From positions 1 to 36,471 of the IMG/VR virus record IMGVR_UViG_3300031566_000182: 36,471 nt of DNA; one strand, given 5' to 3'. Under the pieces are notes generated by a model. That model was not told the origin of the DNA. It ran no database searches and saw only the letters and a program-made list of their open reading frames with translations. This document shows, piece by piece, positions 8,377 to 34,249 of this stretch (positions are counted from its first letter, which is position 1; each line of letters starts with the position of its first letter). The position numbers were made by a program, and so were the translations under genes. The DNA is from a virus.

Positions 8377-8796
8377 ATGGCTGGCAGTGGAACCAAACTG
8401 CATGGCAAGAACGGCGCGATCTATCTTGACGGCCCCAAGGGGACCGGCACGAAGGTCACGAACAAGACGGAGTGGACCCTCAACCTCTCCCGCGACTACG
8501 TCGACGCGACCGTCTTCGGCGATGTGAACAAGACCTACCTCGTGGGTCTCAAGGACATTCAGGGGACCTTCGCAGGCCTTCTCGATGTCAGCGGTGACTA
8601 TCAGGTCAACGCCGCGTCTTCCGACGCGATCAACATCTACCTGTACGCGGACGACGGTGCTTCGCCTGTCCTCGTGGCCTACGGCCCCGGGCTCATGGAC
8701 GCGAGCATCACCGCCAGCAACACCGACGCGATCAAGACGACCGGGAACTTCCGTGCGTCCGGCGCGTGGACCGTCTTCTCGGACGGCACCCTCTAG
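8377..8796 (+). CDS. Tail tube protein, copy B (tandem paralogue)
   Basis: This 139-residue protein aligns over its whole length with the preceding gene: LHGKNGAIYLDG against LHGKNGAIYVDG, WTLNLSRDYVDATVFGD against WSLNMSRDYADVTTFRD, LVGLKDIQGTFAGLLD against AAGLRDVQGSFSGLYN, and GNFRASGAWTV against GNFRAAGTWTI. Main differences are a short insertion (PKGTGTK) near residue 25 and an eight-residue C-terminal extension (FSDGTL end). The gene has its own ATG 24 bases after copy A. Its TAG stop at 8794 is followed within two bases by the first arm of a predicted RNA pseudoknot. Confidence 0.75.
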   Translation: MAGSGTKLHGKNGAIYLDGPKGTGTKVTNKTEWTLNLSRDYVDATVFGDVNKTYLVGLKDIQGTFAGLLDVSGDYQVNAASSDAINIYLYADDGASPVLVAYGPGLMDASITASNTDAIKTTGNFRASGAWTVFSDGTL

Positions 8797-8797
8797 C

Positions 8798-8876
8798 AGA
8801 GGCCTAACCCTCAATCCGTGACATCGACCGAGTGGAGGGGCTGATAGGCCTCTCCCGGCTGTGACCCTCCACTCGG
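8798..8876 (+). promoter_or_regulatory. Predicted RNA pseudoknot or switch between tail tube gene and next gene
   Basis: Two perfect inverted repeats interlock. AGAGGCCTA (8798-8806) pairs with TAGGCCTCT (8845-8853), and CCGAGTGGAGGG (8828-8839) pairs with CCCTCCACTCGG (8865-8876). The order A-B-A'-B' is an H-type pseudoknot with loops of 21, 5 and 11 bases. The AAGGAG ribosome site (8877-8882) of the gene at 8890 begins directly after the last arm. Without A-A' pairing, the 12-bp hairpin alone could act as a terminator or processing site. Pairing is exact; function is inferred. Confidence 0.65.
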
Positions 8877-8889
8877 AAGGAGATGGCGA

Positions 8890-9228
8890 ATGCCTTACTT
8901 GTTCAAGGCCATCAGATCGGGCGCCGATATGAAGCCCGCTGGTGTCGTGGACATCGCATTCCTCGGCGGCAAAGTCGGGGATATCGCGAGTTGGACGCTG
9001 ACTCGGCGCGGGGACGAAGGCCCCGACGCGGACCTTTACGACCTCCGCGCCGTGTTCGCATATGTGGCTGAAGCGCTCTGGGACGATCCCGACTATGAGA
9101 AGCGGGTGACCCTATCGCTCAACCCGAAGAAGCAGTACAGGCTGCAGCAGGCCGAAGGTTTCCGTACGGTGCGGAGCGGTCGCAGTCTACTGATGGAAGG
9201 AGTAACTATCCATGCCGTTGACGGCTGA
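8890..9228 (+). CDS. Unknown tail-region protein
   Basis: I do not recognise this 112-residue protein. It has a strong AAGGAG site six bases before ATG. The sequence is mixed: VVDIAFLGGKVGDIASWTLTRRG, then helical LYDLRAVFAYVAEALWDDPDYEKRV, then LSLNPKKQYRLQQAEGFRTV. It has no membrane segment or metal motif. It lies between the tail tube genes and the tail assembly chaperone and overlaps the latter by 17 bases, so a role in tail assembly is likely from position only. The predicted pseudoknot just upstream may control its translation. Confidence 0.75.
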   Translation: MPYLFKAIRSGADMKPAGVVDIAFLGGKVGDIASWTLTRRGDEGPDADLYDLRAVFAYVAEALWDDPDYEKRVTLSLNPKKQYRLQQAEGFRTVRSGRSLLMEGVTIHAVDG

Positions 9229-9604
9229 ACCAAAGACACGCACGGTCGAGATCCGAGGCTATCGGTTCAAGATCCGCGAACTCACGATCGGTGAGTACGA
9301 CGAACTCGAAGAGAAGGCCACCACCAAGCGCCCCAACCCGGTCAACGCCGATGGGCCGCAGATCGACGTCACCGACCGTTCGCAGTTGCTGCGGATGATG
9401 GTCATCAAGGCCGTGGTCGAGCCCCACCTGACACCCGGCAAACTTGCTGAACTCCCCCTGCGCGTGGCGCTCGGCCTCAACGACGTGGTCAACGGGATGC
9501 ACTTTCCAGATGAGGATGGCGCGAAGGCAGATCTTGTCGAGATCGACCCTGAGGACGCGGAGGATGAAGAGGACGAGAAGGAAGAGAGCCCGGGGGAAGG
9601 TTGA
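9212..9604 (+). CDS. Tail assembly chaperone, N-terminal (G-like) protein
   Basis: This 130-residue protein reads RTVEIRGYRFKIRELTIGEYDELEE, then LLRMMVIKAVVEPHLTPGKLAELPLRVALGLNDVVN, ending in a very acidic tail (DPEDAEDEEDEKEESPGEG). This is the usual make-up of the first of two chaperone products that coat the tape measure during tail assembly. The gene stops at 9602-9604, and the second reading frame continues in the -1 frame. A CCCGGGG heptamer lies nine bases before the stop. A small fraction of ribosomes should shift there to make a fusion of about 221 residues. Confidence 0.8.
   Translation: MPLTAEPKTRTVEIRGYRFKIRELTIGEYDELEEKATTKRPNPVNADGPQIDVTDRSQLLRMMVIKAVVEPHLTPGKLAELPLRVALGLNDVVNGMHFPDEDGAKADLVEIDPEDAEDEEDEKEESPGEG
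9589..9595 (+). promoter_or_regulatory. Predicted -1 ribosomal frameshift site C_CCG_GGG
   Basis: In the zero frame of the chaperone gene the bases read agC CCG GGG GAA GGT TGA. CCCGGGG fits X_XXY_YYZ exactly: the P-site tRNA re-pairs CCG to CCC and the A-site tRNA re-pairs GGG to GGG. A -1 shift moves from frame 2 to frame 1, the frame of 9601-9876, and gives ...SPG-GRLTTSEV.... Paired G/GT chaperone frames joined by -1 slippage are established in many siphoviruses (lambda G/GT). Confidence 0.75.
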
Positions 9605-9876
9605 CCACCAGTGAGGTCATCATGATGCTGGCTCGCCGGTACTCGCGATGGCCCCATGAGGTGGCGGCACTCCCGATGAGTTACTACATCTCCTTGCGAG
9701 ACGACTTCATCCGAGAGAAGATGGCAGAGCGACGTGCCCTCGCACGGGCGAAGGGCGACGACGATGATGTCATCGAGTTTGACGCTAAGGCAGCCGCATC
9801 GGGTCATCTGGCCAGCACGGTCAATGAGGCACTCGATCGGAAGGCCGGTGTGGAAGCAGACGCAAAGGTAGTCTGA
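9601..9876 (+). CDS. Tail assembly chaperone, C-terminal (T-like) part, made by frameshift
   Basis: This 91-codon frame reads TTSEVIMMLARRYSRWPHEVAALPMSYYISLRDDFIREKMAERRALARAKG. The W-P-x-E-V-x-x-L-P pattern and short helical, charged make-up are typical of the T segment of GT chaperones. The only early start is a weak TTG overlapping the previous stop, and no ribosome site stands before it. The frame is therefore probably expressed only as a fusion from the CCCGGGG site (last 93 residues, from 9595). The tape measure starts 3 bases after the stop. Confidence 0.78.
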   Translation: MTTSEVIMMLARRYSRWPHEVAALPMSYYISLRDDFIREKMAERRALARAKGDDDDVIEFDAKAAASGHLASTVNEALDRKAGVEADAKVV

Positions 9877-9879
9877 CCC

Positions 9880-12800
9880 ATGGCAGCCTCGAACTCTGTC
9901 GCCGACATCGGCGTCAAACTCACCGCTGACACCACGGCATTCGATACCGCTATCGAGCGGTCCAGCCGCAAACTGTCCGCTCTCAGAGGCACGACGAGTG
10001 CCTCTGGGAAGGGCAGGGGCGCGGCTCGCGGTACGACCGTGGCGGGCGCCTCCGACGGTGACAGTCGCTACGCCGTCAAGGGTGAGGTGACCTTCACCAA
10101 GGCGCAGGCCACGCGTGCGTTCAAGGTGGCCACCGAGGGGCTGGTCGCCAGCGTCCCGATGAAGATCACCCGGTCCTCCATCGCCGAGGCGAAGGCCGCC
10201 ATCCTCTCGGGCATCGGAACGGTGCCGGTCACCATCGCGCCGAAGTTCGCCGAGAAGGGCAGCGGCAGCATCACCCAGACCATGGGCGCGGTGCTGGCGA
10301 TGCAGTACGGCATCACCCAGACACAGGGCCGGGCGCTCTTCAAGGAGACAGCCTCCAAGGCCATGCCCGGCGGCCCCCCGAAGGGACTGGCCTCGGGCGG
10401 TCCCGTCTCGGCCATGACCCCGGTCGTCGTCGGCGAGCGACGGCCCGAGGTCTTCGTGCCCAAGGTCAATGGGCGCATCCTGCCCAACGCCGACAACTTC
10501 CGCCGCGAGATCCGCAACCTCGACTCCTTGGAGCGTGAGATCTCCCAGCGCCAGCACCGCATCAAGCAGTCGCTGCAGGATGTGCCACATGCGATGCGTG
10601 GTCGTGGTGTGCGTGGTTACGGCGGCAAACTGGGAGTCCAGCCGGGTCCATCTTCATCCGCTGTCGCGGAACCCGGCTGGCTCTATCACGCTACCGACAA
10701 CCTCGACGCGATCCGTGGGCGCGTCCCGGGGTCGAGCCCGGGGGTCAGGCCCCTGACAGAAAGCATCTTCAGCCCGCCTTCTTCTTTCTGGGCCACCTCT
10801 CCGGCTCCCAACTATGGCGGGTCCCTCGTCCGTGCCCCGTTCATCAGGCCCGCGCCCGGCAGGCCAGCCCTCGGCGGCTTCGAGTCCACCGGTGATATCC
10901 GCTACGGCGTGAGGGGTGCGCCGTATTCCGAGGTGTTCCAGTCGGAGGACGTGGTTCCGCGCTCTGCTCTCCAGTATTGGGGCGAGGATGAGCGGTGGCA
11001 CGGCTTCCGCAAGGGCAGGACGAGGACCCGGCCACCGCTGGTGAGGCGACAGGATGGCGGTCCCATCTACGCCATGGCTGGCACTCGCCCGATGAAGGAG
11101 GGCGATCTCCACAAGAAGTGGCCCTACCGTCGGCAGCGCAATACCATCGAGCAGTTCATCCAGAACCGGGCTCCGCAGAACAACCTCGACTTCCGAGACT
11201 GGTACGCCATCGCACAGGCGCAGGCCCGTGGCGACATGGCCGACTTCGGATATCAGGGCGATCCCGACATCGGCCTGTTGGCAGCCGCGAACCTCTCGCC
11301 GGGCATGGCGTGGCCGAACAACCGGGCGCTCTTCCGGCAGTTGCTACAGGGTGTGCCTCCGGGTCAGATGTCCGCCTCTGGGTTCGTGCCGGGCTTTGGT
11401 GATGTCGGTGGCGGTGTATCACGTGGCCGGGGTCCGTTCCGGCGGGCCGAGAAGGTGCTCCGCGCCCGCACGCTGCAGGAGGCGTTGCGCCTCTCGACGG
11501 GCCCCAAGGTCCATCCCTTCGGCCTGAACCTCACCGGCCTCGATCCGACGGCGGGCACGTACGACGCCCGCATGTTCCAGATCGCCACGAACGACCAGCA
11601 GATCGTTCGCATGAGCAAGGGCGTGCCGAAGATCGGTGTCATCGGGGGCGTCAGCGAGGGACCGTTCCGCCGCGACACCATCAAGGCCTACGAGTCGCTG
11701 TTCCGCAAGTACGGCGACCAGTTGGGCGCTCGCAACATCTCGGAGTTCCAAGCCATCCTCTGGTCCTCCAAGGGCCGGGGTGCTGATCTGGGGGATGACT
11801 GGGCCCGCTCCCCCTCGGGTATCGTCATCCCCCGCCACCCCGGTATCGCCGTCCCGGTCATGCGTATGGCCGGTGGCCCGGTGGACCTCGCCCGCGACTG
11901 GCGTAAGGAGGATTGGCGCAGGGCTTTCAGGCCCGAACAGGTCCCCACCCAGAACCTCATGCGGTTCATGCATGTCGACCGCGAGGTCACCCCTAAGCCC
12001 GGCGGCGGACGTTGGTATCTCGATGAACTGACCGAGAAGATCGGATCTGAGGGGTTCCTCGAAGACTTTCCCCTGAAGTTCTACTACGACCCTGACGCCC
12101 ACAAGGGCTTGCTCGGCGATGGCAACCACCGGTTCGCTGCTGCTGCCCGCCTGAGCCTTCCGACGGTGCCGGTCGACGTCTACAACATGCGTGGTTCGGC
12201 GGGGACGACGGGCAAGACCCCGTACAAGTCGCTCCTCGGCCCGAAGACCACTTTCCCCGACGAGTTCGGCTACATCCCTGAGAACCTCCCGGCTTCATGG
12301 ATCGGGCTCCAGCGCCCCGAGGACTCCGAATATCACATCCAGAGGTTCCTGAAGCGTCGCGAACAGTACCTCCGCGAACTCCCGCGCAAGGGCATGGGCG
12401 GCTTCGCTCATGCCCAGCACGGGGTGAAGTTCAGCCTTCGCGACATGCGTTCGGGCCTTGGCCGCCGCACCCGTGACACGTTGGAAGACCTCTTGGCCTC
12501 GTTCCCGATCATCGGCACGAAGGTCGACAACCCTGACCCGCAGTTCGGTATACCGGGCTTCCCGTCGTTGGGGAGGGTGGGTGTCGACTGGACACCGTCT
12601 AACGCCCTCGCTTACTACGGGCGTCCCGGGCAAGTCTCTTCACCGGGTTCTCAGGGGTACGGTCGGCACTTCGAGCCGGGCCACATCATGATGTCGGGCT
12701 ACTACAGCGGCAAGAAGTGGGCCAAGACGAACCCGCCGCGCCAGTGGGCGCCTTCGACGTACTCGGACAAGACCTACGATCGCAGCGGGCGCATGATCGT

Positions 12801-15800
12801 TCACGGGGAAGAGCAGACCAACTTCCACACCCTCCATGGCAGGAACATCGAGGGCGTCGCGGCACACGAGTTCGGGCATGCTGCCGAGCGGTTCATCATG
12901 GGCACTTTCCCACCGGCCACGTCGATCGGCATGTCCTACGAACGCCTGCGCGATGACCTGATGGGGTCGTCTCGGATGGTGTACGACACCAAGAACTTCC
13001 GCGACCGCGAGATCTTCCGGCAGGGAACCGCCAAGTCGGTCTCTGGATACGGCGGGAGCGATGCAGAGGAGGCCTTCGCGGAACTCTTCGCCGAGCGCTT
13101 CCTTGGTGGAACTGGTGCTGGTTGGGGCATGAAGCCCGGGCCGATGTCCCAGATGGACAACATCCAGAAGCAACTGGCCTCGTTCCGGTCGATCGATGAC
13201 CTCGACGGCTACATCAACAACGCCCGGGCTCGGCGCAGTGAGCACCTCACTTCTGGCGGCATCATCGATATGGACCGCTTGCGAGAGGCGATCGGCATCC
13301 GCCACGCAGGCGTGGGCTCGCGGGCCCTGAAGGACACGCTGGCGAAGTACTACCGTAATGAGCCAGCCGGTGGTACATACCCGGTCGCTGACCTCCCGGT
13401 CCCCACCAAGGGCTACGCCGTGGGCATCCCGCAGTTGCTCGGTGGGGCGTCCATCCCGGTCCAACTCGATCCCAACAACCTCACCACCAAGGGCGTGCGC
13501 GAGTTCATCACCGCCTTCCGCACCCAGCAGGGCATGGGTGCTCCCTACGTGGGCACGTGGCTGAACCCCGGCGGCATCATCGATGTCGACCCCTCGACGG
13601 TCGTCCACACCCGGCGTGCCGCAGAGATGATCCTGCGTGCCGGTGGCGAGCACGCGGCCTTCGACCTTGGGCGCTTCGACGAGGTGTGGAGCAGCCACAG
13701 CGATCGTGGTGTGGGTGGCAAGAACCCTGAACTCATCGCCAATCCGCGTCACTCACGGGCCACGCCCGAGCGCATCCTCGATGCCATCTATGAGGGCCGC
13801 GCCAAGGGCGGCAAGAGCCCCCACGGCCTCTACATCGTCGGCGAGATCGGCAAGGAACTCTTCGTCCCTGACGAGATGTCCGAGGCCATTCCCAAGAAGG
13901 TCATGGATCAGATCCCCAAGGCCGCAGGCGGCACTCGGGTCATCGGTCAGAAGCGCAACGAACTCTTCGCGCCGCCGTCCGACGGCTGGATCATCCCCAA
14001 CCGCCTGCTCGATCAGGTCCCGCACCTCATGCCACGTGTCGATGGTGGCCCGGTCGATGAGTGGGCTGGCACGCCGTGGGCGAGCCGCTCTGCGGGCGAT
14101 CCCCCCAACAACTTCGAGCGTCTGCTAGCGGAAGCACGAGACAAGCGCACAGGGCCGTTCGCTGATCCCAACGCTGGCCAGCGGGCTGGCGGGCCTCAGG
14201 GCCAAGGCCTCTTGGGCACGCCGAAGTACTACCGGGGGCAGTTGTTCGACCAGTCGCGTGCGAACTACTGGCGTGCTCCGACTGCGATCGATGCCATCCA
14301 CGAGGCCCCGCTGACGCGTGGTGTGGGGACCGACATCGTGGGCTTGGGCGAGGTCCCGACGACGTGGACGCCCGGCGAGTTCTACCGGGGCGGGACGCGC
14401 CCGTTCTCGTCGGACGATTGGTCTCCCGGCGCGAACCCGTTGATCGGCAGCCGTGGTGCGAGTGGTCCGCTCGGCTCGCGCATGGGCCTGACCAGTGGGA
14501 CCGGCGGCATGCTCCCCTACGCCACTGGGCTTGGCGCTGGCGTACCGGAGCCGCGAGACATGTTCCCCGTGGCCCCTCGTTCGTCGGTGGCCGGGGCCGA
14601 GGGCGCTTACGGGACGCCGTACCAGTCGCCTGTGACGATGCCGGGTGCCGCCAAGCCTGCCGACATGAAGGACTTCTCGTTCGACAACGTCCGAGTGGTC
14701 AACATCGAAGCCGGTCAGGCCAGCGTCGAGTCGCGACAGGCTGGGACGGGAGCCGGTTCGCAGCGGGCTGGTGATGGGTCCGGGCTGTCGCAGCCATTCG
14801 GCGACTCAGCCGCCATGGCCGAGGGCGCGCAGACGTACAGCAACATCCTCGATGACATGAAGCGTGGCGGCACCGAGTGGCAGCAGCGCCTGTCCTCCCG
14901 TACACCTCGTGGTGGTATCGCTTATCAGGTCTCCGAGACCGTCGGTGGTGGGGCGCGGCTGAAGAAGTTGCAGCGCCAGTTGCAACTCGAACTGCGAGCC
15001 CTCGACCAGATGGTCGAAGGTCCGAGGGGCGAATACACCACTGAGCAGAAGCAGGAGCGCCGGGCATTGGCCGGTGCGTATGTCGAGTATCCCGAACGGC
15101 TGGAAGCGGCCCAGCAGATCATCGACCCGAAGGACCGGCAGCGGGCGATCGACGACCTTGAGGCCACTCGCAAGCGAGCGAAGGATGTGCTCGGCGAAGG
15201 CACGCTGAAGCAGTGGGACAAGGCACAGGGCACGCTGAAGAAGTTGGACATCGGCTTCGGCTCGGTCGTGCGCCAGATGGGTTCGGTCATCGCCGGTATC
15301 GGCATCTACGGCGTAGCGATGTCGGCCTTCGGCTCGGTGATGCAGGCCGGGATGCCAGCGATCAAGACGTGGATCGACGGGATGCGGGGATGGCAGGCGA
15401 CGGCCTCCACCCTGACGACCCAACTGGGTGAGCAGACCAAGCAGCAGTGGGGCAACGTCGATGCCGTGATGGCCATGAAGTCCGCGCAGGCGGGCCTTTC
15501 TGGCGAGACATCGGCATACATGCAGGCCATCCTCGGACCTGTCGCTGCGGTGAAGGCCGGAGCCAAGGCCATGGGCGAGACCGAGGAGTTGTTCAAGGCG
15601 GCCTCGTATTCGTCCGAGCGACCGTCGGTCGAGGGCCTGTATGGCGGCTACGGCGGCCTCATGGGCGGCGGCATCCTCGCCGAGATGCTCGGCGGCGGCA
15701 AGGGCTTCAGCGAGACGATGAGGGGCACCTTCGCCAATATTCGCGGGTCCGCGAATGGCCCGATGCCCGGGCTCGACGTCTCTCCGATCGAGGGCGCCGC

Positions 15801-18030
15801 CAAGTACGTGGCCGGGAAGTTCGGCTTTGGCGACGACGAGTTCACGAGGCTCATCGACTCCCTGACCAAGGCCGGGACGGGCTATGAAGACCTCCTGACG
15901 TCCTCCATGGACGCGTGGATGGGTGTGGGCTCTATCGAGTCCTTGACGCGAGGGGCTGGCCTGAGCCTCGATGACATCGAGAGGGTCACCGGGACGCGGT
16001 ATGGGCTCGGCGACACGCCATCCTTCGAGGATCTCAAGGCCATCGACGCTGCGGTCGGTCAGCGTCCGGGCGCGGGCGAGGCCGTCGGGCCGGAGTGGGG
16101 TTTCTTCGGCAAGCAGTTGAACTCATTGGCCAACGCCTTCGACGACACCCTCGGGGATGCCGGGCTGTACGACCGCAGCAAGCCCCGGCGCGAGGCCGCG
16201 ATCGCCCGTGGTGAATACCTCCAGAAGCCATTCGAGGAGCGCATCGCTGAGTCCCTTGGCCTCGGCGAGAACCGCAGCGTCAATGCCGGGCTGAATGCCG
16301 GGCAGATCGAGCGTCGCAACTTGGCACTGGGCGACATCAAGGAAGCCGAGGATCGTGGCTACGAAGCGGTAGGCCTCATCGCTAACGCCACGTGGGAGGT
16401 GACCGGCAACCAAGAGAAACTGATGAAGGGCTTCATGACCGCGTGGGAGGCCGGGGACTGGGACGGAGTCCTACGGGTGGTCGAGGACGGCATCGTTCCC
16501 ATGGTCAATGGCACGGTCGCCACGATGGAGGAGTACGAGAAGATCCTCCAGCAGACCGCTGTCGGCAAGACCATCGTAGATCCCAATGTGTGGGCGGGCA
16601 TCAACAAGCGCCAACTGACGGCCCAGTACGAGCAGACCCGGCTCTCCTCCGAGCGCCAGTTCGGCCTGACCGAGTTTGCGGTCTCGCAGCAGCAAGTCAC
16701 GGCCCCGCTCATCAGGCCGGGTGCGGCGTTCTTCGGCGGGACGGATGTCGCGTCGGTGCAGGCGGCTGGCGGCGGTTCGGCGTCTGCCGAGATCTCCACC
16801 CTGCTCGGTGATGCTCAGAAGGCACAGCAACAGGTCCGAGACTTGGCCAAGGAAGGCTGGAAGGACATGCTGGCCGATGTCGAGGCGTACGCCCCCGACA
16901 TGGTCGGCGACTTCAACAAACTCAAGTCAGCGGCGATGGCGTCGCAGTCCGCCATCAAGCAGACCACCACGCGCATGGCGGTCCTGCAGCAGGAGGCCAA
17001 TCAGGCCAACTGGGACAACCAGATCCGCATCGCCCAGCGTTCGCTCGGTGATGCCATCGGCATGCTGGGACAGGTCGGCGGCACCCGCCTCGGCTACCTC
17101 CAGCGCGAGCAGTTCCTTGCCGGACGAGCCAGCCAGAGCCTCGGGCTTGCGGCCCAGAAGATCTCGCTCGTGTCGCAGGAACTGTCGTTGGCACTGCAGA
17201 AGCGGCAGATCGCCACGCAGTTGGCGGTGGCCCAGTTCCAAGCCCCCGGCGAGACGGGCGAGGAGCGCTACGCCCGCCAGCGCGAGGCCATCATCCGCGC
17301 TGGCATCCAGCGAAGACAGGTCGGCCTGCAGGAGCAGGGCCTCGGCATCAGCAAGCAGCAGTACGGGATCGCGGAGCGCCAGTTCGTGCTCGCCGGTCAG
17401 TTGTGGGCCGAGAACGCCAAGCGTGCTGCGGTGGACGCCCAACTGTCCATCGACGTGATGCGGAAGTCACGCAAGGCAGAGTCGTTCGCGATCGCGGCGC
17501 AGGCGCGTATCGCTGCCGAGTCTCAGGTCGCCGCCAACGTGATGCGGAAGATCAACATCATCACTGGGCGCGCCAACGCGAACTTCAGTCAGGCCTTGGG
17601 CACCGCAGCGTCCAACGTGGGCCAGTTCTCCGGCGATGTCGAGGCGGCCTCCGGCATCATCCTCAACATGCTGCAAGCAGCCGGGCAAACCGACTATGTC
17701 GACCGGCGGCGCCGACAGGAGGCCGAGGAGCACCGGCCCGGGCGCAAGCGCGCTGCGGGCTTCCTTGGCACCGTCGACGGCGAGACCACGATGACCATGG
17801 GCGAGGCTGGGGCTGAGACCGTGGCCATCCTCCGCAACCCGCGTCGGGCCCTGATGTCCGGTGGGGGCGGTGGGGGCGGCGGGCCGATCAACCTGACCAT
17901 CAACCTCAACAACCCCTCAGTCCGCTCGGACGGCGATGCGGCACGCCTTGCGAAGAACGTGGCGCACGAAGTCGAGCGCGTCCTCTCTCGCAAGGGCCAG
18001 TTGCTGGGTCTCCGAGCACCGGGGTACTAG
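9880..18030 (+). CDS. Tape measure protein with a large inserted enzyme-domain cassette
   Basis: At 2716 residues it would by the usual length rule specify a very long tail. The N terminus (SVADIGVKLTADTTAFDTAI) and the helical second half with a hydrophobic stretch near 1795-1831 (MGSVIAGIGIYGVAMSAFGS) and Gln/Ala-rich coiled coils at about 2220-2600 are typical tape measure. Residues about 266-1265 are not. In order they hold: an ART-like start (GWLYHATDNL, 266); a domain with LSPGMAW (about 473) and GPKVHPFGLNLTG; a ParB-like motif LLGDGNHRFAAAARL with H750; a zincin with HEFGH at 996-1000 and EEAFAE at 1063-1068; and a KGYAVG...GTWLNPGGIIDVD domain (1177-1260). Copies of a VGExxxELFVP motif flank this block (near 182, 1316, 1353). 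The C terminus is a poly-Gly linker and PINLTINLNNPSV. Domain names are motif-based inferences; the tape measure call is firm from position and ends. Confidence 0.9.
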   Translation: MAASNSVADIGVKLTADTTAFDTAIERSSRKLSALRGTTSASGKGRGAARGTTVAGASDGDSRYAVKGEVTFTKAQATRAFKVATEGLVASVPMKITRSSIAEAKAAILSGIGTVPVTIAPKFAEKGSGSITQTMGAVLAMQYGITQTQGRALFKETASKAMPGGPPKGLASGGPVSAMTPVVVGERRPEVFVPKVNGRILPNADNFRREIRNLDSLEREISQRQHRIKQSLQDVPHAMRGRGVRGYGGKLGVQPGPSSSAVAEPGWLYHATDNLDAIRGRVPGSSPGVRPLTESIFSPPSSFWATSPAPNYGGSLVRAPFIRPAPGRPALGGFESTGDIRYGVRGAPYSEVFQSEDVVPRSALQYWGEDERWHGFRKGRTRTRPPLVRRQDGGPIYAMAGTRPMKEGDLHKKWPYRRQRNTIEQFIQNRAPQNNLDFRDWYAIAQAQARGDMADFGYQGDPDIGLLAAANLSPGMAWPNNRALFRQLLQGVPPGQMSASGFVPGFGDVGGGVSRGRGPFRRAEKVLRARTLQEALRLSTGPKVHPFGLNLTGLDPTAGTYDARMFQIATNDQQIVRMSKGVPKIGVIGGVSEGPFRRDTIKAYESLFRKYGDQLGARNISEFQAILWSSKGRGADLGDDWARSPSGIVIPRHPGIAVPVMRMAGGPVDLARDWRKEDWRRAFRPEQVPTQNLMRFMHVDREVTPKPGGGRWYLDELTEKIGSEGFLEDFPLKFYYDPDAHKGLLGDGNHRFAAAARLSLPTVPVDVYNMRGSAGTTGKTPYKSLLGPKTTFPDEFGYIPENLPASWIGLQRPEDSEYHIQRFLKRREQYLRELPRKGMGGFAHAQHGVKFSLRDMRSGLGRRTRDTLEDLLASFPIIGTKVDNPDPQFGIPGFPSLGRVGVDWTPSNALAYYGRPGQVSSPGSQGYGRHFEPGHIMMSGYYSGKKWAKTNPPRQWAPSTYSDKTYDRSGRMIVHGEEQTNFHTLHGRNIEGVAAHEFGHAAERFIMGTFPPATSIGMSYERLRDDLMGSSRMVYDTKNFRDREIFRQGTAKSVSGYGGSDAEEAFAELFAERFLGGTGAGWGMKPGPMSQMDNIQKQLASFRSIDDLDGYINNARARRSEHLTSGGIIDMDRLREAIGIRHAGVGSRALKDTLAKYYRNEPAGGTYPVADLPVPTKGYAVGIPQLLGGASIPVQLDPNNLTTKGVREFITAFRTQQGMGAPYVGTWLNPGGIIDVDPSTVVHTRRAAEMILRAGGEHAAFDLGRFDEVWSSHSDRGVGGKNPELIANPRHSRATPERILDAIYEGRAKGGKSPHGLYIVGEIGKELFVPDEMSEAIPKKVMDQIPKAAGGTRVIGQKRNELFAPPSDGWIIPNRLLDQVPHLMPRVDGGPVDEWAGTPWASRSAGDPPNNFERLLAEARDKRTGPFADPNAGQRAGGPQGQGLLGTPKYYRGQLFDQSRANYWRAPTAIDAIHEAPLTRGVGTDIVGLGEVPTTWTPGEFYRGGTRPFSSDDWSPGANPLIGSRGASGPLGSRMGLTSGTGGMLPYATGLGAGVPEPRDMFPVAPRSSVAGAEGAYGTPYQSPVTMPGAAKPADMKDFSFDNVRVVNIEAGQASVESRQAGTGAGSQRAGDGSGLSQPFGDSAAMAEGAQTYSNILDDMKRGGTEWQQRLSSRTPRGGIAYQVSETVGGGARLKKLQRQLQLELRALDQMVEGPRGEYTTEQKQERRALAGAYVEYPERLEAAQQIIDPKDRQRAIDDLEATRKRAKDVLGEGTLKQWDKAQGTLKKLDIGFGSVVRQMGSVIAGIGIYGVAMSAFGSVMQAGMPAIKTWIDGMRGWQATASTLTTQLGEQTKQQWGNVDAVMAMKSAQAGLSGETSAYMQAILGPVAAVKAGAKAMGETEELFKAASYSSERPSVEGLYGGYGGLMGGGILAEMLGGGKGFSETMRGTFANIRGSANGPMPGLDVSPIEGAAKYVAGKFGFGDDEFTRLIDSLTKAGTGYEDLLTSSMDAWMGVGSIESLTRGAGLSLDDIERVTGTRYGLGDTPSFEDLKAIDAAVGQRPGAGEAVGPEWGFFGKQLNSLANAFDDTLGDAGLYDRSKPRREAAIARGEYLQKPFEERIAESLGLGENRSVNAGLNAGQIERRNLALGDIKEAEDRGYEAVGLIANATWEVTGNQEKLMKGFMTAWEAGDWDGVLRVVEDGIVPMVNGTVATMEEYEKILQQTAVGKTIVDPNVWAGINKRQLTAQYEQTRLSSERQFGLTEFAVSQQQVTAPLIRPGAAFFGGTDVASVQAAGGGSASAEISTLLGDAQKAQQQVRDLAKEGWKDMLADVEAYAPDMVGDFNKLKSAAMASQSAIKQTTTRMAVLQQEANQANWDNQIRIAQRSLGDAIGMLGQVGGTRLGYLQREQFLAGRASQSLGLAAQKISLVSQELSLALQKRQIATQLAVAQFQAPGETGEERYARQREAIIRAGIQRRQVGLQEQGLGISKQQYGIAERQFVLAGQLWAENAKRAAVDAQLSIDVMRKSRKAESFAIAAQARIAAESQVAANVMRKINIITGRANANFSQALGTAASNVGQFSGDVEAASGIILNMLQAAGQTDYVDRRRRQEAEEHRPGRKRAAGFLGTVDGETTMTMGEAGAETVAILRNPRRALMSGGGGGGGGPINLTINLNNPSVRSDGDAARLAKNVAHEVERVLSRKGQLLGLRAPGY

Positions 18031-18033
18031 CCT

Positions 18034-19587
18034 GTGGGAACCCCCACCCGCTCGACCATCACCATCCGGGTCGCAGGGGGAGACATCAGCAAGGACGTCA
18101 TCTACGCCGAGACATCGTTCACGTCTTCGGCGATGGCCCAGCCCGGGACGTGCAACATCGGCGTTCGCGATCCGAATGACGCGTACGACTTCACCGAGGG
18201 CGCCATCGTCCAGTTGCTCATCGACGGCACCATGCGGTGGCAGGGGTACGCCTTCGATGTCGAGATGGGCTACGTCATCGAGGACGACGAGGCATACCGG
18301 CGCTGGACCCTGTCGGGTGTGGACCTCAACATCCTCTTGGACAAGTTGATCCTCTACAACCGCTCGTACCCCACGCGCTACCCCGACGGCGGTGGGGCGT
18401 TCAAGCGCAAGCGCGTGACCGAGGACGGGCAGAAGTATGGCTGGCAAGTGGTCGTGCCCCGGTACACGAACGACGGCTACTACATCAAGCACATCCTCGA
18501 TGACACCGACCTTGACCGTGTGAGCCCGGCCATCACCTACAAGGGAGCCGGGGCGCGGATCGAGAACGTGGGCATGATCAGCGTCGATGGACCCATCACG
18601 CCGCCGTCCTCAGGCGCTCCGATCAGGAGCGTCCTCGCTGATGTCTCCAAGCGTGTCGATGCCAGCCTGCCGGGATCGACCATCTGGTACATCAGCCCGG
18701 ATGGATACCTCGTGTATGGGCCGCAGGACACGAACTACGCGCCCTTCTGGGTAGGCGACGGCGATCCGTCCTCCTACATCGGCGGCGTGCAGGGTGAGAA
18801 CGTGCGGTCGCTGCGACTATCCAAGGGCATCAGCAGCATCAAGAACGACGTCATCATCTGGGCCGGAGACCTCAATCCGCAGCCCAAGTCTCGGCAGCAG
18901 AAACTGCTCTACCGGCACAAGGTCAACCAGTCGTCGGTCGACACCTACGGTCGCTTCCAGTACAGCGAGATCGTCAACGGACGCTGGACGCAGGCAGCGC
19001 TCAATGCTCGTGCCAACCGCGTCGTCAACCAAGAGGGCGTGCCCTCCGGCACGGTGTCCTTCATCACCTACCGTCCCGGGCTCTACCCGGGCCAGATCAT
19101 CTGGGTCTGGTCATCGGCCCACGGCATCACCGAGAACTATCCGATCAGGACCATCTCTTACCGCTTCCCGCTGCCCGACATCGTGGAGTATCAGGTGTCC
19201 TGCTCCTACGACACGCAGGACCCGTGGGGTCTGCTGATGGCACTGAAGCAGCCAGCAGGACGCGGGCTCACGCGACCGACCTTCAACGTCATCGACCTCC
19301 GCAAGAACGACGGCGGGACCATCCCGTCGCCGGACCGGTACGACCTAATCAAGGAGTTCCCGCGCTCTCTCGGCGACCGCCGGTACGCCACGACGTACGC
19401 CTACATCCGTGACTCCATGACCGTGTACGTCGGCAGGCGGCGGCGGGTCTCGCTGGAGGACCCGCAGGCTGGCACCACGGGCTTCTACCAGTCCGACCCC
19501 AGCGAGGGCAAGTTCAGGATCGCCGAGGCTGCGGCTGGCAACGAGACGGTGTACGTGGAGTACCACTTCAACGCCGAGATCGACTGA
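18034..19587 (+). CDS. Tail hub / distal tail protein
   Basis: This 517-residue protein starts at GTG, 3 bases after the tape measure. Its opening (STITIRVAGGDISKDVIYAETSF, then GTCNIGVRDPNDAYDFTEGA, MRWQGYAFDVEMGYVIEDD) is the beta-barrel pattern of siphovirus hub proteins (gp27/Tal-like): a measured property, displacement FxGxVxxx, then WTLSGVDLNILLD. The middle includes SVLADVSKRVDASLPGSTIWYISPDGYLVYG, and the end is beta-rich with RIAEAAAGNETVYVEYHF. A paralogous module lies in the next gene at residues about 1885-2325. It probably forms the ring that closes the tail tube and carries the fibre protein. It overlaps the next gene by one base (TGATG). Confidence 0.78.
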   Translation: MGTPTRSTITIRVAGGDISKDVIYAETSFTSSAMAQPGTCNIGVRDPNDAYDFTEGAIVQLLIDGTMRWQGYAFDVEMGYVIEDDEAYRRWTLSGVDLNILLDKLILYNRSYPTRYPDGGGAFKRKRVTEDGQKYGWQVVVPRYTNDGYYIKHILDDTDLDRVSPAITYKGAGARIENVGMISVDGPITPPSSGAPIRSVLADVSKRVDASLPGSTIWYISPDGYLVYGPQDTNYAPFWVGDGDPSSYIGGVQGENVRSLRLSKGISSIKNDVIIWAGDLNPQPKSRQQKLLYRHKVNQSSVDTYGRFQYSEIVNGRWTQAALNARANRVVNQEGVPSGTVSFITYRPGLYPGQIIWVWSSAHGITENYPIRTISYRFPLPDIVEYQVSCSYDTQDPWGLLMALKQPAGRGLTRPTFNVIDLRKNDGGTIPSPDRYDLIKEFPRSLGDRRYATTYAYIRDSMTVYVGRRRRVSLEDPQAGTTGFYQSDPSEGKFRIAEAAAGNETVYVEYHFNAEID

Positions 19588-32577: not shown

Positions 32578-32909
32578 GTGACTTCTGCCTCCAAGTAGTC
32601 CCGCTCCTCGCGGCGGTGTGATGTGGCCCAGACGTAGCCTGCGCTCGGCCCGGTGCCACGGTGGTGACCGGGGCAGAGCCAGACATGGTCTTCAGGCAGG
32701 GCATGGCGGGGTCCATGGGCTCCGAGGCGGACGTAGTCCATCTCGCCTTGGTCCCACTTCAGTTCGTTGTAGGCCAGTGGGAGCACCTTGCCCCAGCGGT
32801 CGTAGCAGGGCCCGGCGTCCGGGTCGACCTTGCGGGCGACGCACCCGACGTCCCTGCCACTGACGACGGCGCGGGTCCATTCGACGGTGCCCTCTTCGTA
32901 GTAGGTCAC
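32574..32909 (-). CDS. HNH-endonuclease-like protein with an altered motif
   Basis: This 111-residue protein starts at a GTG overlapping the AAA ATPase stop (GTGA). It carries CVARKVDPDAGPC (Cys23, Cys35), GEMDYVRLGAHGPRH and EDHVWLCPGHHRG (Cys79, His82, His83), the zinc and core landmarks of small phage HNH proteins. In that family the middle motif is usually xDHV; here it is Asp58-Tyr59-Val60, so the usual general-base His is missing. It may be an inactive, DNA-binding HNH relative, or may use a nearby His (65 or 69). Position in the replication operon fits DNA binding. Confidence 0.7.
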   Translation of the reverse strand: MTYYEEGTVEWTRAVVSGRDVGCVARKVDPDAGPCYDRWGKVLPLAYNELKWDQGEMDYVRLGAHGPRHALPEDHVWLCPGHHRGTGPSAGYVWATSHRREERDYLEAEVT

Positions 32910-34249
32910 CCGATCCCTCCCCGCTTGACGAGCCTGATGCGGCGTGGCTTCACACCGAAGACCGCTTCGAAGGTGTCGGGGTTCTCCCTGATGATGTTGT
33001 TCACGCGGCTGTGTCCGACCTTGAGGAGGTGTGCCAGTTCCGAGGTCTTCATACCTTCTGGTTTCCCACTGAGGGCGTCGATGAGGGCTACCTTCTGGCT
33101 GGGCTTGGTGCCCTTGCCCTCCTCCTCCGGCGGCGGTGTGAACTGGTACTCGGGGATGAACTCGTCGTCCTCGGTGAACATGATGATGCCGCTGTCTGAG
33201 TCCCAGACGATGGACATCGCCAGCGGATCACTGAGCCGGGAGTCGTTGGCCTTCGTGTTCACCAGCCTGATGTGGACGTCCTCGTCGGTCGGCGAGGTGC
33301 CGTTCTGCAGTTCCCATGTGGCCCGGGCAAGGTTGATCTTGTAGACCGACCCGTACGGGGTCGAGCCCACGACCTTGCCCTTGCGGTCCTTCATCTCGGA
33401 CTTGGAGACGTGGTCGACCAGCAGGGTGGTGCAGCCCAGCATGCGGATGGCGGTGAAGAGTTTCAGCGTGCCCTCGTTGGCGTCGCCGTACTCGCCTCCG
33501 GTGCCCATGGCGGGGCCGCAGGAGTCGATGACGATGAACTTGATGCCGTGCTCGCTGACGACCCGGGCCAGTTCCTCGGCGTCGTCGGCGATGGGCCGAA
33601 AGCAGCGCCGGTAGTAGAAGTCCTTGGTGGGTTTGAAGTCGTGGCCATGGCCGATGTACTCGATGCGCTCCCGCACCGTGTAGGCGTCGGTCTCGTAGTC
33701 GAGGTAGAGGGCTGGCCCCTTCACCTGAGGCGCCAGCCCGGGGACGATCTCCATGCCCTTGGCGACCGACAGGGCCAGCGCCGTGGCGACCACGCTCTTG
33801 CCGATGCCGCCGGGCCCATAGAGGATGGACGTCACGCCGTGGGGGCAGAGCGGCTTGATGTCGTACCGGGCTCGACGCTCCGTCGGCATCGGGCCGTTCA
33901 TGGACAGGAGCGGCTCCCCCTCCCGCTCGGCGGACAGGACGTACTGGCACAGGTGCTCCAGCGCGTCGGTCCAGTCCATCTTGTCGAAGGGCGTGTTCTC
34001 GGTACGCCCCTTCAGGATCTTGGCTAGCGTGCTCCGGGTGGTCGCCGACGAGACGTTGAACCGTGCTTGATGCAGCGCCCCGTCGACGGTCTTGATGCCA
34101 TCCCAGTTGACGACGACGCGGAGTTCACCCTGCAGTTCCTGTCCGCTGCGCTTGAGGCGCCCGAGGCTCAACTCGACGCCTGCGTCTTCGGACCAGAGCC
34201 GGTAGGAGAGACCGATGCGTTCGAACGACCATCTCGTCTTCGTCGTCAT
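32906..34249 (-). CDS. RepA/AAA_25-like replicative ATPase
   Basis: This 447-residue protein holds a Walker A motif GPGGIGKS at 145-152, a Walker B strand KFIVIDS at 237-243, and downstream elements LLVDHVSKSEM and GSTPYGSVYKINLARATWEL, typical of RecA-fold RepA-like helicases (AAA_25). The 130-residue N-terminal region is specific. The C-terminal end (LIDALSGKPEGMKTSELAHLLKVGHSRVNNII) is a winged helix. It likely unwinds or loads at the phage replication fork with the adjacent primase. No second helicase is in the window. It is coupled by ATGA to the primase and by GTGA to the HNH-like gene. Confidence 0.85.
   Translation of the reverse strand: MTTKTRWSFERIGLSYRLWSEDAGVELSLGRLKRSGQELQGELRVVVNWDGIKTVDGALHQARFNVSSATTRSTLAKILKGRTENTPFDKMDWTDALEHLCQYVLSAEREGEPLLSMNGPMPTERRARYDIKPLCPHGVTSILYGPGGIGKSVVATALALSVAKGMEIVPGLAPQVKGPALYLDYETDAYTVRERIEYIGHGHDFKPTKDFYYRRCFRPIADDAEELARVVSEHGIKFIVIDSCGPAMGTGGEYGDANEGTLKLFTAIRMLGCTTLLVDHVSKSEMKDRKGKVVGSTPYGSVYKINLARATWELQNGTSPTDEDVHIRLVNTKANDSRLSDPLAMSIVWDSDSGIIMFTEDDEFIPEYQFTPPPEEEGKGTKPSQKVALIDALSGKPEGMKTSELAHLLKVGHSRVNNIIRENPDTFEAVFGVKPRRIRLVKRGGIG

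Follow-up and report, generated by a model that had tools for sequence, protein, structure and literature searches.

The stretch of DNA analysed here (the window) is a 36.5-kb virus record from IMG/VR. Its gene P0001 is an uninterrupted frame of 2716 codons, the second largest in the window after P0003 (3066 aa), and lies downstream of genes for head-tail adaptor, neck, tail terminator and major tail proteins and of two small genes in the chaperone position. The first of these two is XkdN-like (1.9e-5) and the second had no match. A hub- or baseplate-like tail gene follows (Table 1). The N-terminal, slot-border and C-terminal regions of the product are common to other tape measure proteins (TMPs), the proteins that determine how long a phage tail is. 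The left border element shares 61% identity with part of the annotated cyanophage KBS-S-2A TMP, close to the C-terminal end of that protein, the right one is 53–72% identical in relatives, and the conserved C-terminal part is present in a TMP that carries no cassette (L017) too. Gene position in the tail cluster and homology of both ends to other TMPs identify the gene as a TMP gene, as the initial annotation had it.

Elsewhere in the window, P0003 (19587-28787) contains 26 short FTVDAVI-like repeats compared with 0.4 expected on shuffling, a pattern common to the relatives L011-L013. The repeat proteins downstream of the TMP in L012 (13695-17666) and L013 (11680-15903) have at their end a stretch with a Cys, 'GDIDDCW(V/L)VATVWAA', that resembles a papain-type peptidase. 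A GT4-type glycosyltransferase gene (1608-2909; GT4-conflict family above cut-off) lies directly upstream of the prohead protease gene, and an AAA_25 ATPase gene (3.9e-24) is located on the opposite strand at 32906-34249 (-).

Table 1 Tail genes and TMP features of the window.
Feature	Residues	Position	Strand	Basis or remark
Two small genes, tail-assembly-chaperone position		9212..9876	+	directly upstream of P0001
TMP gene with cassette, P0001	2716 aa	9880..18030	+	TMP homology of N- and C-termini
TMP N-terminus, conserved	1-170	9880..10389	+	leave-one-out profile 1e-18
Left border element 'GGPV..VGERRPEVFVP'	168-205	10381..10494	+	common to other TMPs
ART-like module (plausible), Y-H-x-T motif	264-386	10669..11037	+	profiles
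DUF7178 module	417-654	11128..11841	+	PF23802 4.9e-7
DUF7178 Lys543 and Asp562	19 residues apart	11506..11565	+	invariant
Predicted ParB/Srx module, DGNHR motif	683-785	11926..12234	+	profile and fold
Predicted zincin metallopeptidase module, HEFGH and EEAFAE	860-1124	12457..13251	+	profiles
KGY module, KGYAVG/GTWLNPGG, uncharacterised	1138-1278	13291..13713	+	profiles (leave-one-out match 1139-1281)
Right border element 'YIVGEIGKELFVP...FAPPSDGWIIPN'	1309-1396	13804..14067	+	
TMP C-terminal part, conserved	1799-2716	15274..18027	+	leave-one-out profile 1e-193
Hub/baseplate-like tail gene, YQBQ-like		18034..19587	+	PF24032 3.4e-7

Between the two border elements the protein carries five extra modules within residues 264-1278, in the order ART, DUF7178, ParB, zincin and KGY; each of the four junctions is marked by a GG-type linker (residues 393, 665, 840 and 1126). 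The initial annotation had proposed such a series of enzyme-like domains from seven short motifs, and all seven were found in the one open frame of the TMP: LYHATD at residue 268, LSPGMAW at 472, GDGNHRF at 746, HEFGH at 996, EEAFAE at 1063, KGYAVG at 1177 and GTWLNPGG at 1225. Whole-protein searches of Pfam, PDB and phage sequences with the TMP were nearly empty and patterns derived from the full TMP matched nothing; the modules were recovered piecewise via relatives. Using profiles built from relatives with the window left out, we obtained matches for ART (264-385, 1.4e-21), DUF7178 (417-653, 2.8e-36), ParB (684-777, 1.7e-19) and KGY (3.5e-34), and a zincin profile made from MuF-protein zincins alone matched residues 950-1085 (1.1e-11). 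In the controls, shuffling the cassette 100 times or reversing the protein gave E-values of 0.5 or worse, which bears out the proposed series. A combined zincin and KGY alignment misplaced the domains and was discarded.

A structure model of residues 261-786 is mixed alpha/beta, with a pLDDT of 72.9 overall and of 80-97 across most of DUF7178 and ParB. This part of the block is therefore predicted to be something other than the solely helical tape measure fold against which the first reading was to be checked. Single-sequence AlphaFold modeling of residues 245-1390 was uninformative (pLDDT 32.5).

The ParB-like label given to the GDGNHRF region agrees with both profile and fold. Its profile matches ParB structures (4e-5), the modeled domain resembles ParB CTPases (Z 8.8) and sulfiredoxin (Z 8.7), and the DG[NH]HR motif is kept in 5/5 copies. 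By its modeled fold and active-site Arg motif, the module belongs to the ParB/Srx superfamily. The zincin identity likewise holds by sequence profile: HExxH and the downstream Glu are invariant in 8/8 sequences, and the profile, with MuF relatives included, matches M34/PPEP-type peptidases in the PDB. Motif and family similarity thus point to an M34/PPEP-like zincin metallopeptidase. The KGYAVG/GTWLNPGG domain, also named in the initial annotation, was recovered in relatives. Profiles of KGY and of the GNAT-like, JAB-like and ART modules gave no convincing PDB match, which does not in itself speak for a new fold.

The domain first noticed through its LSPGMAW motif is DUF7178, a Pfam family without assigned function, which scores 30.3 against a cut-off of 27 bits. 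Its model resembles endonuclease III, OGG1, Mag2 and other HhH-GPD proteins over about 150-160 residues with Z of 6.7-8.3, a range that can also reflect a common helical arrangement and not HhH-GPD kinship. A Lys/Asp pair is invariant in 9/9 TMP copies with a spacing of 18-19. HhH-GPD glycosylases have a catalytic Asp, which in bifunctional members is preceded by a Lys at a distance of 18-19 residues. The pairs of endonuclease III (Lys120/Asp138) and OGG1 (Lys249/Asp268) have the same spacing as that of DUF7178. A search for a sequence-profile link between DUF7178 and HhH-GPD found none. On the basis of the model and the residue pair, DUF7178 is probably HhH-GPD-like, a good but unproven assignment.

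The module at residues 264-386 takes its ART-like label from the LYHATD motif of the initial annotation. ADP-ribosyltransferases are recognised by the ART fold and an H-Y-[E/D/Q] triad. In the module, the Y-H-x-[TA] motif is conserved and is accompanied by a strong C-terminal block, YWG[EQ]D..WH.FR.GR, making the label plausible by motif; however, the profile has no match in the PDB and no confident fold was obtained, the ART-like blocks of the 261-786 model having a pLDDT of 31-73 and being hardly covered by the VIA-align structure-comparison rows. Further ART-like stretches occur in relatives. One TMP (L037 3389-5155) has two tandem ART-like modules and perhaps, at 'VPLYHGETG', the beginning of a third. 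In another (L034 5515-9249), a 'RFVHVTNRRNWRGIVENGL' stretch between ParB and DUF7178, outside the coverage of the module profiles, resembles another ART-like domain.

Relatives were collected with two sets of queries. The first set, blind to the presence of a cassette, consisted of the TMP C-terminus, the downstream tail gene and the major capsid protein, and led to the TMPs L003 (N-terminus only), L006, L011, L012, L013 and L017. The cassette is carried by L006, L011, L012 and L013, and L017 is without one, so that TMPs with and without the block are both found, as the initial annotation had asked, and the motifs are conserved in relatives. The L003 fragment stops within the ART-like module. 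KGY and ART-like queries added L020, L021/L024, L025, L026, L027-L030, L031, L034, L035 and L037, with all matches inside TMPs; because these relatives necessarily carry the queried modules, module frequencies are not estimable. Scans of prokaryote genomes with KGY and with the right border element returned no relatives, and the L027 cassette had no match in a search of plasmids.

About a dozen architectures were distinguished, in which the cassette keeps its site and, on contigs of sufficient length, is bracketed by the same two border elements; the length between these elements is about 670-1450 aa. From N- to C-terminus they read ART, ParB, KGY, DUF7178, JAB, zincin (L012); KGY, ParB, DUF7178, WLPS (L011); GNAT, KGY, ParB, DUF7178, HPr (L006/L013); HPr, KGY, JAB, DUF7178, HPr (L024); GNAT, HPr, KGY, DUF7178 (L025/L026); KGY, DUF7178, HPr (L027); and, where the contig ends, ART, WLPS, ParB, DUF7178 (L034) and ART, ART (L037); L017 has no cassette modules. 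The profile E-values behind these architectures include seed sequences, the leave-one-out profiles being the fair test, and the names GNAT, JAB, ART and WLPS were given by motif. The JAB-like motif HNHP..PS..D is kept in 2/2 copies. HPr, found in relatives and not in the window, scores above cut-off with PF00381 (66.8 against 23 bits, 1.8e-18) and with the NCBIfam model TIGR01003 (63.7 against 47.9 bits, 1.2e-17). As the active-site His is kept in all aligned copies (Gly-[LI]-His-x-Arg-Pro-Ser), family score and active site together indicate a PTS HPr. In the L006 TMP (8671-13779), a C2H2-like zinc-finger motif (CPTCG...H...H) at about residues 455-480 lies between GNAT-like and KGY; it is missing in L013.

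Comparison of close pairs locates recent exchange at module borders. In L025 and L026 the first 784 residues, comprising the N-terminus, GNAT, HPr and KGY, show 94-100% identity, which drops to about 30% where DUF7178 begins, a module swap. L006 and L013 have a common block of 961 residues from KGY to HPr (98.8% identity), preceded by N-terminal backbones that are 50-73% identical and followed by divergence after the right border; judged from these alignments, a cassette of about 960 aa has moved between TMP backbones. In L024 compared with L020, an inserted JAB-like module separates KGY from DUF7178, and these two neighbours are 97-98% identical in the pair; we read this as gain or loss of the JAB-like module. 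A large survey of phage protein mosaicism was unable to confirm recent mosaicism in TMPs (PMC10684548), unlike these pairs, in which recent module exchange is now clear. The dN/dS values of 0.06-0.24 in the modules of close pairs show that the modules are maintained by purifying selection.

The cassette-bearing relatives are all metagenomic contigs, as is the source of the window, and the motifs alone are short, so chimeric assembly or chance matches might be suspected. We consider such an artefact negligible: the architectures come from independent contigs spread over many metagenomes, identical TMPs recur in some of them (L027, L028, L030), L003 repeats the junction from N-terminus to ART of the window, G+C is even, and the leave-one-out profiles beat the decoys.

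To look for the modules outside TMPs, we ran the profiles against all frames of all fetched loci. Here they matched only solo phage genes (KGY 2e-14 to 2e-16, DUF7178 2e-20) and MuF head proteins (zincin 2e-5 to 1e-4, ParB 1e-5). HPr was also found as a solo phage gene. KGY solo genes of Arthrobacter and Microbacterium phages sit among non-structural genes, and the zincin relatives are located at the end of MuF head proteins. These matches indicate that the TMP cassette draws on a module pool common to MuF proteins and solo genes. Homology of the modules across relatives, their reshuffling and this kinship give good support to the polyvalent-type set suggested in the initial annotation. One MuF-type head protein (L033 9593-13936) contains five zincin-like copies.

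We think it rather probable that the TMP carries a polyvalent-type effector cassette in a payload slot, reshuffled among relatives and delivered with the DNA; its delivery, processing and activity are what we infer. The N-terminal half of the TMP would be the slot, holding GG-linked modules between the two border elements. Packed in the tail tube together with its modules, the protein would leave the tail ahead of the DNA. TMPs fill the tail tube and, in the current view, come out before the DNA and build a channel for it (PMC10721106). A cassette carried on such a chain would enter the host as infection begins. The modules could then act early in the cell, which would fit counter-defence or takeover. 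ParB/Srx and the HhH-GPD-like DUF7178 would be directed at nucleic acids, and the ART-like module and, in relatives, the GNAT-like, HPr and JAB-like ones would modify proteins or act in signalling.

The main difficulty for delivery is packing, with several folded domains per chain in the tail tube; moreover, the N-terminal half of the TMP may be head-proximal and leave last or stay behind. Confinement in the tube makes catalysis inside it unlikely, and this would suit captured enzyme domains that now serve as tail spacers, plugs or docking parts without a host role. The modules do sit in a structural protein, and the cassette varies widely in length, as spacers might. Against such structural use, the motifs of HPr, ParB, JAB, zincin and DUF7178 are retained in divergent copies and unrelated folds are freely exchanged in one slot; we regard it as unlikely.

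The zincin, where present, could cut the chain and free the modules, as proposed for polyvalent proteins. It occurs in only two architectures, those of the window and L012, so self-processing cannot be general. Its presence there, together with border elements that flank the cassette precisely, would also fit a polyprotein payload removed during assembly, the parts going to the capsid or the producing cell as with DdrB of phage P1, which undergoes processing before it is packaged into the head (PMC5512222). Most architectures, however, have no recognised peptidase module, and the border elements have no known site of cleavage, leaving this removal a little less credible still than structural use. 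A zincin might also cut an envelope protein. Since TMPs with lytic transglycosylases have been described, for example in enterococcal phages (PMC10194240), the modules could act outside the cytoplasm and aid envelope passage as lytic TMP domains do. This appears very improbable, as domains of the ParB/Srx, HPr, GNAT-like and HhH-GPD-like kinds would depend on nucleotides, phosphoryl donors, acetyl-CoA or DNA, and Pfam matched no peptidoglycan-hydrolase family in the TMPs.

Delivery of the cassette into the host thus remains the reading we prefer. A bolder form of it, which we put forward only tentatively and with more doubt than belief, is that the slot is a natural, programmable one for protein delivery and the TMP a self-unpacking effector polyprotein, in which exchange between phages at GG joints matches host defences and zincin-bearing versions release their modules in the host. 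If delivered, the cassettes would make TMPs a third route of enzyme injection from the virion, beside MuF and internal proteins of the head and podovirus ejection proteins, and a source of uncharacterised early effectors such as KGY, DUF7178 and HPr in phages. Their slot, fixed in position yet open to very different folds, would also be a possible protein-delivery chassis, and the tail possibly a syringe for interchangeable protein cargo besides DNA.

Polyvalent proteins of phages and conjugative elements, for which delivery with the DNA and processing by zincins were proposed, combine several unrelated enzyme domains per chain and are subject to domain shuffling (Iyer et al. 2017, PMC5512222), as is the case here. 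At least two unrelated enzyme-type domains occur per polypeptide, namely ParB/Srx, zincin and DUF7178, with HPr in relatives. Of the polyvalent hub set (MPTase, ART, DdrB-ParB, GNAT, RadC/JAB), zincin and ParB/Srx were recognised in the cassettes at superfamily level, and the ART-, GNAT- and JAB-like modules resemble members of the set by motif. The cassettes differ in their backbone, a TMP with a bracketed slot in place of the head MuF/portal, vRNAP and conjugative contexts of PMC5512222, and add HPr, KGY and DUF7178; the words 'tape' and 'HPr' are absent from that paper. MuF-type minor capsid proteins with effector domains are similar in that the nearest non-TMP zincin relatives (L032, L033) are found among them, as is gp13 of Gordonia phage Jabberwocky, which is weakly related to the ParB module, whereas the window protein belongs to the tail and not the head, with no MuF domain found by Pfam scans of P0001. 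Tme, a TMP-related effector of the contractile injection system of Streptomyces davawensis with an active nuclease domain (PMC11126660), is also a TMP-like chain with an enzyme domain as cargo. It has one C-terminal nuclease domain and is non-viral; here, a phage TMP has a multi-module cassette, and this lies in its N-terminal half. TMPs with lytic domains (PMC10194240) likewise contain enzyme domains, which act on the cell wall, whereas the cassette modules look intracellular and combinatorial. In the open-access papers searched, no TMP is described whose cassette is bracketed and exchanged in this way. Polyvalent proteins, lytic TMP domains and one TMP-related effector were thus already known, and, judged from those papers, the bracketed, exchanged cassette within a TMP is new.
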